A model generated the notes under the pieces. That model was not told the origin of the DNA and made no database searches. It saw nothing but the letters and a program-made list of their open reading frames with translations. Source: Microtetraspora fusca (lineage in GTDB: Bacteria; Actinomycetota; Actinomycetes; Streptosporangiales; Streptosporangiaceae). Taken from it: DNA of 64,000 bases. The translations under genes were made by a program, and so were the position numbers. This document shows positions 6,062 through 10,821 of the stretch, piece by piece (the first letter of the stretch is position 1; every line of letters starts with the position of its first letter). Location: NCBI RefSeq assembly GCF_001570365.1, contig NZ_BBYK01000044.1:1-64000 (forward strand), read 5' to 3'.

Positions 6062-6083
6062 TGATTGCTATATTGCGCAACCA
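6062..6083. promoter_or_regulatory. 22-bp inverted repeat upstream of the first LCP gene
   Basis: TGATTGC, 8 bases, then GCAACCA. The arms match 6 of 7 and the site ends 24 bases before the ATG of the LCP gene at 6108. The spacer ends in TTGC, giving TTGCGCAA at 6073-6080. The same arm-8-arm layout recurs at 9078-9099, 9115-9136 and 9265-9286. The likely binder is the ArsR-type protein encoded at 7597-7944. Confidence 0.6.
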
Positions 6084-6107
6084 TACAACCGTGGCGCGGG
6101 AGCGAGC

Positions 6108-7562
6108 ATGCGTACAGCAAGCACACCAGTGAGGCATCGTCCTCGCGACGCAGCCAGGCGTCGACGCCGGTCCGGGCGAGTGCCGGTCGTCGTACCTGTG
6201 GCGGTGACCCTCGCTCTGGTGATCGCAGCCGCGGGAGGAGCCCTGTACACGCGACTGAACGCCGACATCAACACCTTCGCCGCCGACGGCATCAACAAGG
6301 AGCGGCCCGCGGCGAACGTCGGCGGGCAGAACATCCTCATTCTCGGCTCGGACTCGCGCTCGGGCGACAACAGCAAGCTGGGCGGGGGCACCGGGGACGT
6401 CGGCCGCTCCGACACAGCGCTGCTGGTGCACGTCTACCGTGACGGCAAGCACGCCGTCGCTGTGTCGATACCGCGTGACACGCTGGTCGACATCCCACGT
6501 TGCCGGCTGCCCAACGGCACATGGACGGCCCCGCAGAGCGGTGTGATGTTCAACGCCGCGTTCACCGTCGGCCTCACCGCCAAAGGGAACCCCGCCTGCA
6601 GCCAGAACACGGTGGAGAAGCTGACCGGCCTGCGCGTCGACCACACGATCGTGGTGGACTTCGCCGGTTTCTCGAAGATCACCCAGGCGGTCGGCGGCGT
6701 CCAGGTCTGCCTGCCCAAGGACGTCTACCAGGGCGACCTCAACCCCAACCGCGGATCGAAGGGCGCACTGCTGTTCCCCAAGGGCCCGCAGACGGTCTCG
6801 GGGAAGAAGGCCCTGGACTACGTCCGCATCCGGCACGGCATCGGCGACGGATCAGACATCGGCCGCATCAAGCGCCAGCAGGCCTTCATCGCCAGCTTGG
6901 TGAAGAAGGTCAAGGCTCAAGGTCTCAGCCCCACCACGCTGCTGCCGTTGGCCGAGGCCGCGGCCTCCGCCATCACGGTCGACCCCGAACTGGGCTCCGC
7001 CGACAAACTGCTGTCCTTCGCTCTCGGGCTGAAGGACATCGACCTGCACAACACCAAGTTCATCACCCTGCCGTGGCGCTATCAGGGCGCTCGCGTCGCC
7101 GTCGTCCAGCCCGACGCCGACCAGTTGTGGGCCGCGCTCAGGGCCGACCGCACCCTGGACGGCGCCGACGCCAGCGGCAAGGCGAGTTCCTCGCCCAAGC
7201 CGACCCGCCCGGTGTCCGGTGCGGGCATCCGCCTGGCCCTCTACAACGGCACCACCGTCAACGGCCTGGCCGCCCGAGCCGCCGCCAAGCTCAAGTCGGC
7301 CGGCTTCACCGTCACATCGGTCGGCACCGCCGCCTCCCAGAACTACACATCCTCTGTCGTCATGTACGGCCCGGACGCTCAGGATCAGGCCAAGGTCGTC
7401 GCGCGGGCTGTCCCCGGCGCCAAACTCCAGTCGGGTTCCACACCGGGCATCACGGTGATCCTGGGTTCCAATTACGCACTGCCCACCCCGACCCCGACCG
7501 CGCTCGGTTCCAAGGCCCGCTCAGCGGACGACGACCCCTGTGCGGACCTGTCGTACGGGTGA
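6108..7562 (+). CDS. LytR-CpsA-Psr (LCP) family glycopolymer transferase with LytR_C domain
   Basis: 484 residues: short basic cytoplasmic tail, one membrane anchor (about 25-47), extracellular LCP catalytic domain (about 75-310) and C-terminal LytR_C domain (about 375-455, RLALYNGTTVNGLAARAAAKL). LCP enzymes transfer undecaprenyl-linked glycopolymers such as teichoic acids, arabinogalactan or capsule onto peptidoglycan. Key residues are visible: SDSRSGD (82-87), RSDTALLVH and IPRDTL (122-126), plus the late RIKRQQAFI motif. The start at 6108 is chosen because the anchor follows directly. The gene resembles the LCP gene at 9424, and both share upstream TTGC-N8-GCAA sites with tatB. Confidence 0.92.
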   Translation: MRTASTPVRHRPRDAARRRRRSGRVPVVVPVAVTLALVIAAAGGALYTRLNADINTFAADGINKERPAANVGGQNILILGSDSRSGDNSKLGGGTGDVGRSDTALLVHVYRDGKHAVAVSIPRDTLVDIPRCRLPNGTWTAPQSGVMFNAAFTVGLTAKGNPACSQNTVEKLTGLRVDHTIVVDFAGFSKITQAVGGVQVCLPKDVYQGDLNPNRGSKGALLFPKGPQTVSGKKALDYVRIRHGIGDGSDIGRIKRQQAFIASLVKKVKAQGLSPTTLLPLAEAAASAITVDPELGSADKLLSFALGLKDIDLHNTKFITLPWRYQGARVAVVQPDADQLWAALRADRTLDGADASGKASSSPKPTRPVSGAGIRLALYNGTTVNGLAARAAAKLKSAGFTVTSVGTAASQNYTSSVVMYGPDAQDQAKVVARAVPGAKLQSGSTPGITVILGSNYALPTPTPTALGSKARSADDDPCADLSYG

Positions 7563-7596
7563 CCGAGCCGCATCGAATCCACCGCGATCCGGTGCT

Positions 7597-7944
7597 TCAG
7601 TCTCCCAGGCCCCGGAGGCGTTCTCCTGGCTCGGTCACACGCGGGGTCAGGCAACCGATCAGATCCCGCACCATCGCGACGATGTCCCGGTCGTCGATCA
7701 AGTAGACGACGCGGCGGCCCTCCCTACGTGAGCGGACCAGGCCCGCGAGCTTGAGCTTCGCCAAGTGCTGACTTACGGCAGGCAGAGCGCTGCCCACTCG
7801 TTCCGCAAGCGAGGTGACATCGCACTCCCCCTGGGCCAGCACCCAGACGATGTGCAGACGCGGAGGCGAGGACAGCAGCCCGAACGCGGCCGCGGCCTCG
7901 GCCAGCACCGCGGCCGGCGGATCGCCGATCTCGGCCGCTGTCAT
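7597..7944 (-). CDS. ArsR-family winged-helix regulator
   Basis: 115-residue DNA-binding protein. The core LLSSPPRLHIVWVLAQGECDVTSLAERVGSALPAVSQHLAKLKLAGLVRSRREGRRVVYLI is a typical ArsR/SmtB winged helix, with recognition helix ALPAVSQHLAKL. The usual alpha-5 metal ligands (DxHxxxL type) are absent: the segment reads DDRDIVAMVRDLIG. It probably senses something other than a metal, or uses Cys. The start at 7944 is supported by AGGAGG 8 bases upstream. It lies between the first LCP gene and tatA and is the best candidate to bind the shared 22-bp inverted repeats. Confidence 0.88.
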   Translation of the reverse strand: MTAAEIGDPPAAVLAEAAAAFGLLSSPPRLHIVWVLAQGECDVTSLAERVGSALPAVSQHLAKLKLAGLVRSRREGRRVVYLIDDRDIVAMVRDLIGCLTPRVTEPGERLRGLGD

Positions 7945-8403
7945 TGAGCTTGCCTCCTTCTGGAGTCGAGGTACGCACACGCCGACGGGGCCGATCGGAC
8001 AGCGACGACGCCCGTGCAGCCGAAGTCAGGACATGCCGCCCGCATACGGTCGCCTCGGAGATGGGACGGCCAGGCGAGCGGCGCTGTTCTTCGGACTCGG
8101 CAGGCGCCTTTCCATCGACGGCGGCATCCCGACCGTGTGATGGCGTGACCGTCGACGGCGACCTCATCTCACCGCTTTGCCTGGCACGCTCGACACGCGA
8201 CCCGGACCGAGTGGTCCATGTGCACGTCCATGCAGGTGGTCGCCCCTCATCCGGCGTACGGCCAGATGATCGGCGATGAGAGCGTGGCCGACGGGTTCAG
8301 CGGCAGGACTCAGCGCGCCGTACAGCGCACGTGAATACGGCGTCGAGCACCGCCAAGGGACGGGCTTCCCGCGCCGGCCACGCCCTGACCTGAGATCCGA
8401 GGG
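7945..8403. other. Intergenic region, no gene recognised
   Basis: 459 bases between the ArsR gene and the end of tatA, both on the minus strand. No frame shows protein-like composition. It must hold the ArsR promoter. I see no copy of the 22-bp inverted repeat found before tatB and the LCP genes, so the regulator may not be autoregulated by that site. Confidence 0.4.
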
Positions 8404-8673
8404 TCAAGAAGCGGACGGCTTGTCCTTCGCGTCGGCCGCCGCCTGAGCACGCAGTGCGGCCGCCTGCTGTTCGAGCTGGCGGGCCTGCTCCTCCGCCGAC
8501 GGCAAGGCGGGCGGAGCCTGCGGCTCCTCCTGGTCGGACCGGGTCACTTCGGCCTTGAAGATCCGCAGCGACTTCCCGACAGAGCGAGCGGTGTCGGGCA
8601 GCTTCTTGGCGCCGAACAACAGCACCGCGGCGATGGCCACGATCATCCAGTGCGTGGGGCTCAGTCCGCCCAT
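8404..8673 (-). CDS. tatA: Twin-arginine translocase subunit TatA
   Basis: 89 residues with the TatA layout: N-terminal membrane helix (HWMIVAIAAVLLFGAKKLP), hinge FG, amphipathic helix (LPDTARSVGKSLRIFKAEV) and an acidic/Ala/Gln-rich C-terminal tail. TatA oligomers form the pore through which folded Tat substrates cross the membrane. The ATG at 8673 is preferred over an adjoining GTG because of GGAG spacing. It follows tatB by 46 bases. No tatC is in this window, so this is an additional tatA/tatB pair that must use a TatC encoded elsewhere. Confidence 0.9.
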   Translation of the reverse strand: MGGLSPTHWMIVAIAAVLLFGAKKLPDTARSVGKSLRIFKAEVTRSDQEEPQAPPALPSAEEQARQLEQQAAALRAQAAADAKDKPSAS

Positions 8674-8719
8674 CACCTTCTCCTTCTGTTCATGCCGTCA
8701 CCGGGACGGCGATCAGCGA

Positions 8720-9043
8720 TCACGTGGACTCGGGGTCATAGGGAGGGATCTCCCCCCACGCCAGCTCACCGGTCAGCGGCGCGGTCGGCGCCGGCGGCGG
8801 CACCGGGCTCTCGCCCGATTCCTCCAACAGGTATTTACGAGCCAGGGTCTTCGGGTGCAGATCCGTGACATCGAGGTGGGCGAACTCGGGGCCGAGCTCC
8901 GCACGGGCGTTCTCCACCAGCCGGCGGAGCTGGCGAAGCGCCCGCCCCGCCTCCGCCGCGATCTTGGGGAGCCGCTCCGGACCGAAGACGAGCAGGGCCA
9001 CGACCGCGAGCGCCACGACCTTCGTTATGTCCAGCCCGAACAC
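8720..9043 (-). CDS. tatB: Twin-arginine translocase subunit TatB
   Basis: 107 residues: short periplasm-facing start (VFGLDITK), membrane helix (VVALAVVALLVFGPERLP) with the conserved GPERLP hinge, an amphipathic helix (KIAAEAGRALRQLRRLVENARAEL), then a Pro-rich end. TatB forms the substrate receptor with TatC. GTG 9043 is chosen because AGGAG lies 5 bases upstream and the mature TatB signature begins there; a farther ATG at 9088 would add 15 residues. It is the first gene of a tatB-tatA operon. Two copies of the 22-bp inverted repeat lie 35-93 bases upstream. Confidence 0.9.
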   Translation of the reverse strand: MFGLDITKVVALAVVALLVFGPERLPKIAAEAGRALRQLRRLVENARAELGPEFAHLDVTDLHPKTLARKYLLEESGESPVPPPAPTAPLTGELAWGEIPPYDPEST

Positions 9044-9077
9044 CAGATCTCCTGACCGGGAGCCACCGACGACAGGA

Positions 9078-9136
9078 TAGTTACGCAATCACGCAAATGT
9101 CACCATCCGTTGATCACTTGCGCAACCAAGCAAGTG
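9078..9136. promoter_or_regulatory. Two 22-bp inverted-repeat sites in the tatB promoter
   Basis: The stronger site, 9115-9136, is CACTTGC, 8 bases, GCAAGTG: perfect 7-base arms. The weaker one, 9078-9099, keeps the TTAC/GCAA core with the same 8-base spacing and also contains the direct repeat ACGCAA. Both lie in the divergent region between tatB and the second LCP gene. Confidence 0.65.
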
Positions 9137-9264
9137 GAATCTCAGGCTATCGCGACATGTGCATGCCCACCACGTCACCCCTGGTTCCGCCGATCCCTCA
9201 CCCGCTCCGGGGGATCCCTGCCGCCGCACCGGTCCGGCGAGTCGAGAGGCCGTCAACACCTGCT

Positions 9265-9286
9265 CACTTGCAGAATTGCGCAAGTG
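9265..9286. promoter_or_regulatory. Perfect inverted repeat CACTTGC-N8-GCAAGTG before the second LCP gene
   Basis: Identical arms and spacing to the tatB site at 9115-9136, 150 bases away (close to 14 helical turns). It lies 138 bases before the LCP start at 9424. The rest of this 380-base divergent region shows no gene. Confidence 0.65.
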
Positions 9287-9423
9287 ACGCCAAGATTGCC
9301 AACGGCCTGAGCAGGGGGCGTTCCGGGCATAGAGCGCCGACCCGTACGGCAGGCCCTCCCTCATGACAAACGGCAAGTTCCGGTCACGGTCGGTGTCGTG
9401 ACCCTGATCCTTCGGAGCGACGT

Positions 9424-10821
9424 GTGAACAGCGCGGACAACCAACCGCCATCGCGCGGCCGATGGCGGCGTCGGCTCCGCTGGCTGATCGCGCTCGGCCT
9501 GGCCCTGCCGCTCGCGGCGGCGGGGGTCGTCGCGGCCGCCTATGCCAAGCTCTCCGGAAACGTCCGGCACATCGAGGTGACCCCGCAGGACCTCGGCGAG
9601 ACTCGCCCGCCCAAGGCCCCCACCAAGGCGGTGAACGTGCTGGTCGTCGGCTCGGATCAGCGTGACGGCAAGAACGCCAAGTACGGCCGCCGCCTGGTCG
9701 GCGAGCGTACGGACACGATCATGCTCGCCCACGTGTCACCCAACCGGGACAACGCCCTGATCATCAGCTTCCCCCGCGACTCGCTGGTCCGGCTTCCCGC
9801 CTGCCGCGCGGACGCGTCGAAGAACCTCACCGGCCAGGCCCCGCACGTCGGCATGATCAATGAGTCGTTCAACTTCGGCGGAGTAGCCTGCACCTGGAAG
9901 ACCATCGAGACGCTGACCGGCATTCACATCGACCACTTCGTGAAAGTCGACTTCACCGGGTTCAAGGGCATGGTCAACGCCGTCGGGGGGGTCGAGGTGT
10001 GCGTGCCCCAGCCGATCAACGACACCAAGGCCGTCCTCCACCTGCCGGCCGGCCGCCAGACACTGAAGGGCGAGCAGGCGCTCGGTTACGTACGCGCCCG
10101 GTACAGCCTCGGCGACGGCTCGGACATCGGCCGGATCCAGCGGCAGCAGATGTTCGTCGCCTCAATGATCAAAAAGGTGATGAGCGGCGAGACGCTGACC
10201 AGCCCGACCAAGCTCTACGACTTCCTGGACGCCGCCACCAAGTCCGTCACCACCGACCCCGACCTGACTCCGGGCGTGATGAAGGACCTGGCCGACAGCG
10301 CACAGGGACTGAGCGCGGGCGAGATCCGCTTCATCACCGTCCCGTGGCGGTATTCGGTCAAGAACCCGGGGCGGGTGGAATGGGTTCAGCCACAGGCACG
10401 CACGCTCTTCCAGCTTGTCGCGCAAGACAAGAGCACGAAGAACTCGAAGCTGCGTAGCGGCCAGATCAAGATGGCCCGCTCCCGGGTGGAGGTCGAGATC
10501 CGCCACAGCGCCGATAGGGCCTCGCTCGCCACCCAGGTGGCCGCCGCTCTGGAACAGCGGGGCTACCACATCTCCAAGATCCGCCCAGGTCGCGATCCGT
10601 ACCCGAAAACGACGATCCTTTACTCGCCCAAGGGCGAGACCCGCGTCCCGACCCTGGCCAGGGATCTGAAGAAGGGCAAACCCCAGCTCGTCTCAGGCGG
10701 GACGACGTCCCGGCTGGTGCTGCTCATCGGTGACGACTGGCGGGGGTTGAAGCCCATGCAGGCCTCCGACTCGGAGGAGTTGACCGGTTTCGACGCCACT
10801 CAGGACTCCTGCGCGGCGTGA
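9424..10821 (+). CDS. LytR-CpsA-Psr (LCP) family glycopolymer transferase with LytR_C domain
   Basis: 465 residues, same layout as the LCP protein at 6108: basic cytoplasmic end, membrane anchor (about 19-41), LCP catalytic domain with GSDQRDG, ERTDTIMLAH and SFPRDSL, then SDIGRIQRQQMF, and a C-terminal LytR_C-like domain (VEVEIRHSADRASLATQVAAAL). It is expected to attach a lipid-linked glycopolymer to peptidoglycan outside the cell. The GTG start is at 9424. The motifs are equivalent to the first LCP protein but overall divergence is considerable, so this is an old pair, not a recent duplicate. A strong bidirectional hairpin follows at 10832-10861. Confidence 0.92.
   Translation: MNSADNQPPSRGRWRRRLRWLIALGLALPLAAAGVVAAAYAKLSGNVRHIEVTPQDLGETRPPKAPTKAVNVLVVGSDQRDGKNAKYGRRLVGERTDTIMLAHVSPNRDNALIISFPRDSLVRLPACRADASKNLTGQAPHVGMINESFNFGGVACTWKTIETLTGIHIDHFVKVDFTGFKGMVNAVGGVEVCVPQPINDTKAVLHLPAGRQTLKGEQALGYVRARYSLGDGSDIGRIQRQQMFVASMIKKVMSGETLTSPTKLYDFLDAATKSVTTDPDLTPGVMKDLADSAQGLSAGEIRFITVPWRYSVKNPGRVEWVQPQARTLFQLVAQDKSTKNSKLRSGQIKMARSRVEVEIRHSADRASLATQVAAALEQRGYHISKIRPGRDPYPKTTILYSPKGETRVPTLARDLKKGKPQLVSGGTTSRLVLLIGDDWRGLKPMQASDSEELTGFDATQDSCAA

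Follow-up and report, generated by a model that had tools for sequence, protein, structure and literature searches.

Repressors of the ArsR/SmtB family have palindromic operators at promoters and are frequently linked to a P-type ATPase, and the classical metal-sensing members have a set of His, Asp, and Glu residues in the α5 helix or a CxC motif in α3. TatE of Escherichia coli is an extra TatA-type subunit without a TatC of its own, and the known controls of MgtA are PhoPQ, the M-box, and the mgtA leader. Here we describe a block of five genes in the soil actinomycete Microtetraspora fusca, in the order LCP1, ArsR, TatA, TatB, and LCP2. (LCP is short for LytR-CpsA-Psr, a family of glycopolymer transferases.) The block lies within the first 64,000 nucleotides of contig NZ_BBYK01000044.1; by "the window" we mean this whole 64-kb stretch. 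We consider it quite likely that the block is part of a conserved regulon, probably repressed by ArsR, that unites LCP transferases with auxiliary TatA and TatB proteins and, in many relatives, with a Mg2+ pump.

The ArsR protein of the window has the winged-helix fold that is common to the known members of the family (SqrR, SmtB, CzrA, NmtR, and SrnR). In contrast to those proteins, window-type ArsR proteins lack a conserved α5 His set, a CxC motif, and conserved cysteines, and their putative targets are genes for LCP transferases, Tat subunits, and an MgtA-type Mg2+ pump instead of efflux or metallothionein genes. The TatA of the window differs from TatE in that it comes with an extra TatB and with an operator that is common to LCP genes. 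Unlike the known controls of MgtA, the regulator is a one-component protein of the ArsR type, and an Rfam scan of four stretches (the window, L001, L005, and the Microtetraspora malaysiensis locus L053) found nothing at the gathering threshold, including any Mg2+ riboswitch, which is neutral as to the signal. The sigma-E envelope stress regulon of Streptomyces coelicolor resembles the regulon proposed here in that it controls LCP genes, and its mutants require high magnesium, according to PMC6767563; it differs in that it depends on an extracytoplasmic function sigma factor with other promoters, and the words ArsR and TatA are absent from the main text of that paper.

Among open-access titles and abstracts, we found none that describes this gene combination or the operator, and nothing that joins MgtA, ArsR, and Streptomyces. 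Most subscription journals were outside the scope of the search, which makes the evidence for novelty weak; the regulon is apparently undescribed. We know of no described condition under which these LCP transferases and spare Tat subunits are used, nor, to our knowledge, has a common switch been described for the attachment of wall polymers, the export of folded proteins, and the uptake of Mg2+. If our reading is correct, then one switch links these three processes, and a regulator and an operator can be assigned to LCP transferases and spare Tat subunits of antibiotic-producing actinomycetes.

A shared operator upstream of LCP and Tat genes

The initial annotation described four inverted repeats with an eight-base spacer in the three promoters of the block, and all four are present with that geometry (6062-6083, 9078-9099, 9115-9136, and 9265-9286). 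By eye, the arms agree at 7/7 positions in the repeats at 9115-9136 and 9265-9286 at 6/7 in the repeat at 6062-6083, and at only 4/7 in the repeat at 9078-9099. If the repeats are defined as loose palindromes (with up to three mismatches), then they occur at chance level (three matches in the window versus a mean of 2.17 in shuffled sequence) and only two of the four sites are recovered. We therefore dropped that definition and redefined the core as TTGCGCAA-N4-GCAA. This 12-base core, within the 24-bp palindrome TTGY-N4-TTGCGCAA-N4-GCAA, is a better description of the operator.

The exact core occurs just four times in the 9.02-Mb genome, and three of these copies are in the block, while the reversed pattern does not occur at all. 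Base composition predicts 0.34 matches in the genome and 0.0024 in a stretch of 64 kb. All four exact cores are upstream of LCP or Tat genes. With one mismatch allowed, the excess is small (21 matches genome-wide versus 12 for the reversed control). The outer arm was not part of the search pattern, but TTG is found at position -8 in 78 of 120 exact sites from the loci analyzed versus 0.6% in the flanks, which implies that the operator is a 24-bp palindrome. We also trained a weight matrix on exact sites from other genomes and from another contig of M. fusca (C41); near relatives were included and the window was excluded. The four sites of the block are the top four positions in the window (scores are in Table 1), and the best score outside the block is 5.6.

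The sites overlap promoter-like DNA. Operator 1 contains a -10-like hexamer (TATATT at 6069-6074, read by eye). Operator 2, the weakest of the four, forms the 18-bp spacer of a predicted tatB promoter, whose hexamers were also read by eye: a -35-like GTGACA (the complement of 9098-9103) and a -10-like TATCCT (the complement of 9074-9079). Among the same 120 exact sites, 51 have a TANNNT hexamer that overlaps the core in one orientation and 65 have one in either orientation, which is where a repressor would sit.

These observations suggest the following mechanism. A dimer of the winged-helix ArsR protein, and probably also its 68%-identical paralog from C41, would bind TTGY-N4-TTGCGCAA-N4-GCAA. 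At LCP1, at tatB-tatA (and perhaps arsR), and at LCP2, the palindrome shares DNA with a -10-like element or a promoter spacer, so the bound dimer would block RNA polymerase; ArsR is probably a repressor and not an activator. A signal that releases ArsR would then lead to more glycopolymer transferase and to extra TatA and TatB, which probably work with the single TatC of the genome. In many relatives, ArsR would also repress its own arsR-mgtA unit.

Conservation of the operator and its association with ArsR

All five genes are also found, in the same order, in M. malaysiensis (L053), with three exact sites and a fourth imperfect one. In the intergenic DNA between LCP2 and tatB, the site blocks are identical to those of M. 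fusca at 82 of 92 positions versus 165 of 288 for the remainder, where the blocks were set by the weight-matrix positions and the alignment was already known beforehand. Block DNA is matched in 126 of 150 genomes of the family, nearly always through one LCP gene. Among the matches listed, several of the five genes are covered only in the genome of the window and in G064, which is very likely an assembly of M. malaysiensis, and the exact five-gene layout is found only in these two species. Three other genomes of the genus (G001-G003) have ArsR next to MgtA at a locus where an exact site is present, along with an LCP gene in G002 and G003 and a TatA in G001 and G003; elsewhere in G002, an exact site accompanies an LCP2-like gene and a divergent TatA. 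Thus, the five-gene order, for which the initial annotation suggested a search across actinobacteria, is rare; the sites upstream of LCP and TatA/TatB genes do recur, in Streptomyces and in Streptosporangiaceae-type genomes. The tatA-arsR gap of the window also exceeds that of M. malaysiensis by about 340 bp (about 460 bp at 7945-8403 versus 123 bp at 7878-8000 of L053, by gene calls).

The fourth exact core of the M. fusca genome (C41:253536) is upstream of another LCP gene. This locus also has a divergent TatA open reading frame (ORF), a second ArsR (68% identical to that of the window), and a P-type ATPase that belongs with the MgtA-type Mg2+ transporters (684.6 bits to TIGR01524, with a cut-off of 610.75), so that Mg2+ is its predicted substrate; it scores below the cut-off of the subfamily model NF011702 (675.1 versus 975).

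The same combination of genes is found more widely. We examined the best 80 of 467 loci from named genomes that were seeded on the window's ArsR; most are from Streptomyces, and genes were called with a crude GC-frame method. Of the 80 loci, 54 have MgtA nearby, 49 have LCP, and 30 have Tat, while 55 contain the exact core. Nearly all loci with LCP or Tat nearby have the core (52 of 53), versus 3 of the 27 without, and across the 1.24 Mb of these loci there are 91 cores versus 0 for the reversed pattern. Three loci of Nonomuraea (L055, L062, and L076) have TatA, ArsR, and MgtA in series, with near-exact sites ahead of them. Since ArsR-MgtA with LCP and TatA is the widespread form, the Mg2+ ATPase is a main partner that the initial annotation missed. 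What it proposed was one switch for Tat export and wall-polymer attachment, and the operator shared by LCP and TatA/TatB genes, which goes with ArsR, supports this in part; binding by ArsR itself is predicted.

The core is also associated with ArsR at the level of genomes. In a Streptomyces-like genus (g53, 39 genomes), it is present in 12 of the 13 genomes with ArsR and in 0 of the 26 others (p = 3e-9, Fisher exact test). ArsR is present (E ≤ 1e-25) in 16 of 150 genomes of the family, and among the 37 family genomes that were surveyed for both, the core is in 5 of the 7 with ArsR versus 2 of the 30 without. In a sample of 394 genomes of the class, 14 of the 15 with ArsR at E ≤ 1e-35 have the core. 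Across 16 hand-picked genomes with ArsR, there are 48 core matches versus 4 for the control (overlapping doublets were counted twice), or 1 to 7 per genome. The operator is so rare that the members of the regulon could be listed by a pattern search.

Genes of the block

Pfam and NCBIfam assignments are concordant for all five genes (Table 1) and confirm the initial annotation of an LCP pair that flanks ArsR and a spare tatB-tatA pair. LCP1 and LCP2 score 137.2 and 165.7 bits for the LytR_cpsA_psr domain (the cut-off is 24.6). The ArsR protein exceeds the cut-offs for PF01022 (41.2 versus 22 bits) and NF033788 (82.5 versus 55 bits), and its predicted structure has the ArsR fold, with SqrR (39-41% identity in the fold alignments) and SmtB (33-35%) as the closest structural matches. 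Both Tat proteins have the TatA_B_E domain and exceed the cut-off of a TatA- or TatB-type NCBIfam model, although TatB is below the cut-off of TIGR01410 (tatB; 40.7 versus 56.5 bits).

Table 1. Operators and genes of the block, with window coordinates
Feature	Position	Strand	Details
Operator 1, before LCP1	6063-6090		exact core 6065-6080 on -, 24-bp form 6065-6088; matrix score 41.7
LCP1, glycopolymer transferase of the LytR-CpsA-Psr family; has a LytR_C domain	6108-7562	+	PF03816 6.3e-40, PF13399 1.1e-16, TIGR00350
ArsR-type winged-helix regulator, 115 amino acids	7597-7944	-	PF01022 1.5e-10, NF033788; model pLDDT 85.4
Spare TatA	8404-8676	-	start GTG 8676 or ATG 8673; PF02416; NF001854 85.9 bits, cut-off 72
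Spare TatB	8720-9043	-	PF02416; NF002377 117.3 bits, cut-off 96
Operator 2, imperfect	9071-9098		TTACGCAATCACGCAA at 9081-9096; matrix score 18.5; 25/28 identical in L053
Operator 3	9108-9135		exact core 9118-9133 on +, 24-bp form 9110-9133; matrix score 34.6; 24/28 identical in L053
Operator 4, before LCP2	9258-9293		exact core 9268-9283 on -; matrix scores 18.3/18.1 in two registers; 33/36 identical in L053
LCP2, glycopolymer transferase of the LytR-CpsA-Psr family; has a LytR_C domain	9424-10821	+	PF03816 1.1e-48, PF13399 2.9e-9, TIGR00350

Genome-wide, we counted 12 LCP domains, five TatA/B-type genes, and one TatC. The only tatC is on another contig (C40), where it is directly preceded by another tatA, and another tatB is on C41. 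The window's copies are 44% (tatA, 73 aligned amino acids) and 52% (tatB, 119 amino acids) identical to these two genes. Thus, the TatA and TatB of the window are spare subunits without their own TatC and do not make up a complete separate Tat system. There is no dedicated Tat substrate gene within the block and no cargo-like gene beside its tatA. In relatives, there are candidates for the cargo: in L077, the ORF after TatA has a phosphoesterase domain and begins with a twin-arginine-like sequence, and PhoA-type phosphatases are near a site in five loci, with TatA in between in three of them (L070, L072, and L096). By eye, the starts of the PhoA-type proteins have no clear twin-arginine motif.

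What might ArsR sense?

The initial annotation noted that ArsR lacks the usual metal ligands, and this holds across the subgroup: in 93 aligned homologs, there is no conserved His at positions 84-104 (His87 is in only 15 of the 93) and no CxC. The conserved residues include D42 and D85 (both 93/93), E40 (91/93), H31 (88/93), and D84 (85/93), so His31 and the acidic residues might form another metal site. Redox sensing via the two cysteines of the protein was set aside because Cys41 and Cys98 are conserved in just 24 and 2 of the 93 homologs.

An MgtA-type ATPase follows arsR in the more frequent arrangement of the locus, which suggests limitation for Mg2+, or envelope stress of a kind relieved by Mg2+, as the most likely signal. 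MgtA is the commonest neighbor, an ORF with a CNNM/CorC domain lies directly at a site in N. jabiensis, and envelope mutants of Streptomyces need Mg2+ (PMC6767563), all of which point to the same signals. Tentatively, then, this repressor without a classical metal site may be a one-component sensor of Mg2+, through the conserved carboxylates, or of a Mg2+-buffered state of the wall, and Streptomyces and its relatives may have an unrecognized Mg2+/envelope regulon; we put the chance of this well below even. We hold equally loosely the corollary that one 24-bp operator might couple Mg2+ import (by MgtA, and in one Nonomuraea by a CNNM/CorC-type protein) to the LCP-dependent attachment of anionic wall polymers and to inducible TatA and TatB.

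Alternatively, the regulon and its repressor could be the same and the signal could be osmotic stress, a general stress on the envelope, or a small ligand such as a thiol or a lipid, with MgtA as one effector among several stress-type membrane proteins. This proposal falls only a little short of an even chance. Of 112 physical sites, 91 have the start of a listed type of gene within -130 to 450 bp: LCP at 49, Tat at 28, GlsB/Transgly_assoc-type genes at 20, ArsR at 15, TerD at 6, and DUF6542 at 5. (One of the 15 ArsR genes is of another kind, and one ORF was reassigned from TerD to ArsR based on its sequence.) One exact site is near an MscS-type gene. The GlsB-, TerD-, and MscS-type neighbors are as compatible with general stress as with Mg2+, and the control of an LCP gene by sigma-E in S. 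coelicolor (PMC6767563) is in keeping with a stress signal. However, MgtA is by far the commonest neighbor of ArsR, and the poor conservation of the cysteines argues against a thiol.

Is ArsR the regulator?

Several observations weigh against the proposed ArsR regulon. Our weight-matrix scan found no site in the tatA-arsR gap of the window, which implies that arsR could be controlled there only through a tatB-tatA-arsR transcript. Similarly, in 58 of the 80 loci, no site scores above 0 within the 560 bp before arsR. ArsR-MgtA occurs without LCP, Tat, or the core nearby in 22 of the 80 loci, which are, moreover, related to each other, so that our counts are not of independent events. One genome (G385) has ArsR and no exact core, five weaker relatives of ArsR (E of about 1e-26) are all without the core, and two of the family genomes mentioned above have the core and no ArsR. 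In the class sample, the core is also found in 76 of the 379 genomes outside the E ≤ 1e-35 ArsR set. Of a few core matches that we inspected in genomes without a window-type ArsR, two look like chance (L157 and L161), one is equivocal (L154), and two share an inner sequence and precede unrelated genes (L156 and L151).

The missing sites before arsR and the cores in genomes without this ArsR would be explained if another regulator binds the palindrome and ArsR is a linked gene or a member of the regulon. We consider this unlikely given how closely ArsR and the core coincide in genus g53. Also, the remaining 22 of the 80 loci do have a site that scores above 13 within 560 bp upstream of arsR, and related sites are near two other ArsR genes (C46:194747 and L155). 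It is very improbable that the genes of the block came together by chance and that the repeats are coincidental: the loose palindromes are at chance level and the listed matches show the layout in just two species, but the counts of the exact core, the conserved footprint, and the co-occurrence across species speak strongly against it.

Variant sites and other ArsR genes

One of the two related sites near other ArsR genes is in another family of the class (G514), where a doublet, TTGCGTAG-TTGCGCAA-GTTCGCAA, at 3157-3180 of L155 is near a different ArsR. This type of operator may extend beyond the subgroup of the window's ArsR.

The other belongs to a variant, TTGCGCGA-N4-GCAA, on C46 of M. fusca (L005, G000:C46:186000-197000). 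One variant site (C46:187892) separates a second mgtA, which scores 1343 bits to TIGR01524, from a divergent mgtC-type gene; the other (C46:194747), 7 kb away, is where another arsR gene begins, whose product is 38% identical. Because this pair is found only in the genome of the window and in G064 among 200 family genomes, and because the variant pattern as a whole (36 matches listed) is not above the reversed control, this variant operator is no more than suggestive. The mgtA leader downstream of C46:187892 is nearly identical in G064 and has a possible 19-amino-acid leader ORF, with no Rfam match.

Elsewhere in M. fusca, a one-mismatch core (G000:C44:109415-109430, L004) is 12 bp before an ORF for a CadD-like transporter (115.8 bits, below the cut-off of 181.65). 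Next to a third ArsR (50% identical; L171, G000:C81, around 1295-2842) is an ORF whose N-terminus is very rich in His and which may encode a cation efflux protein.

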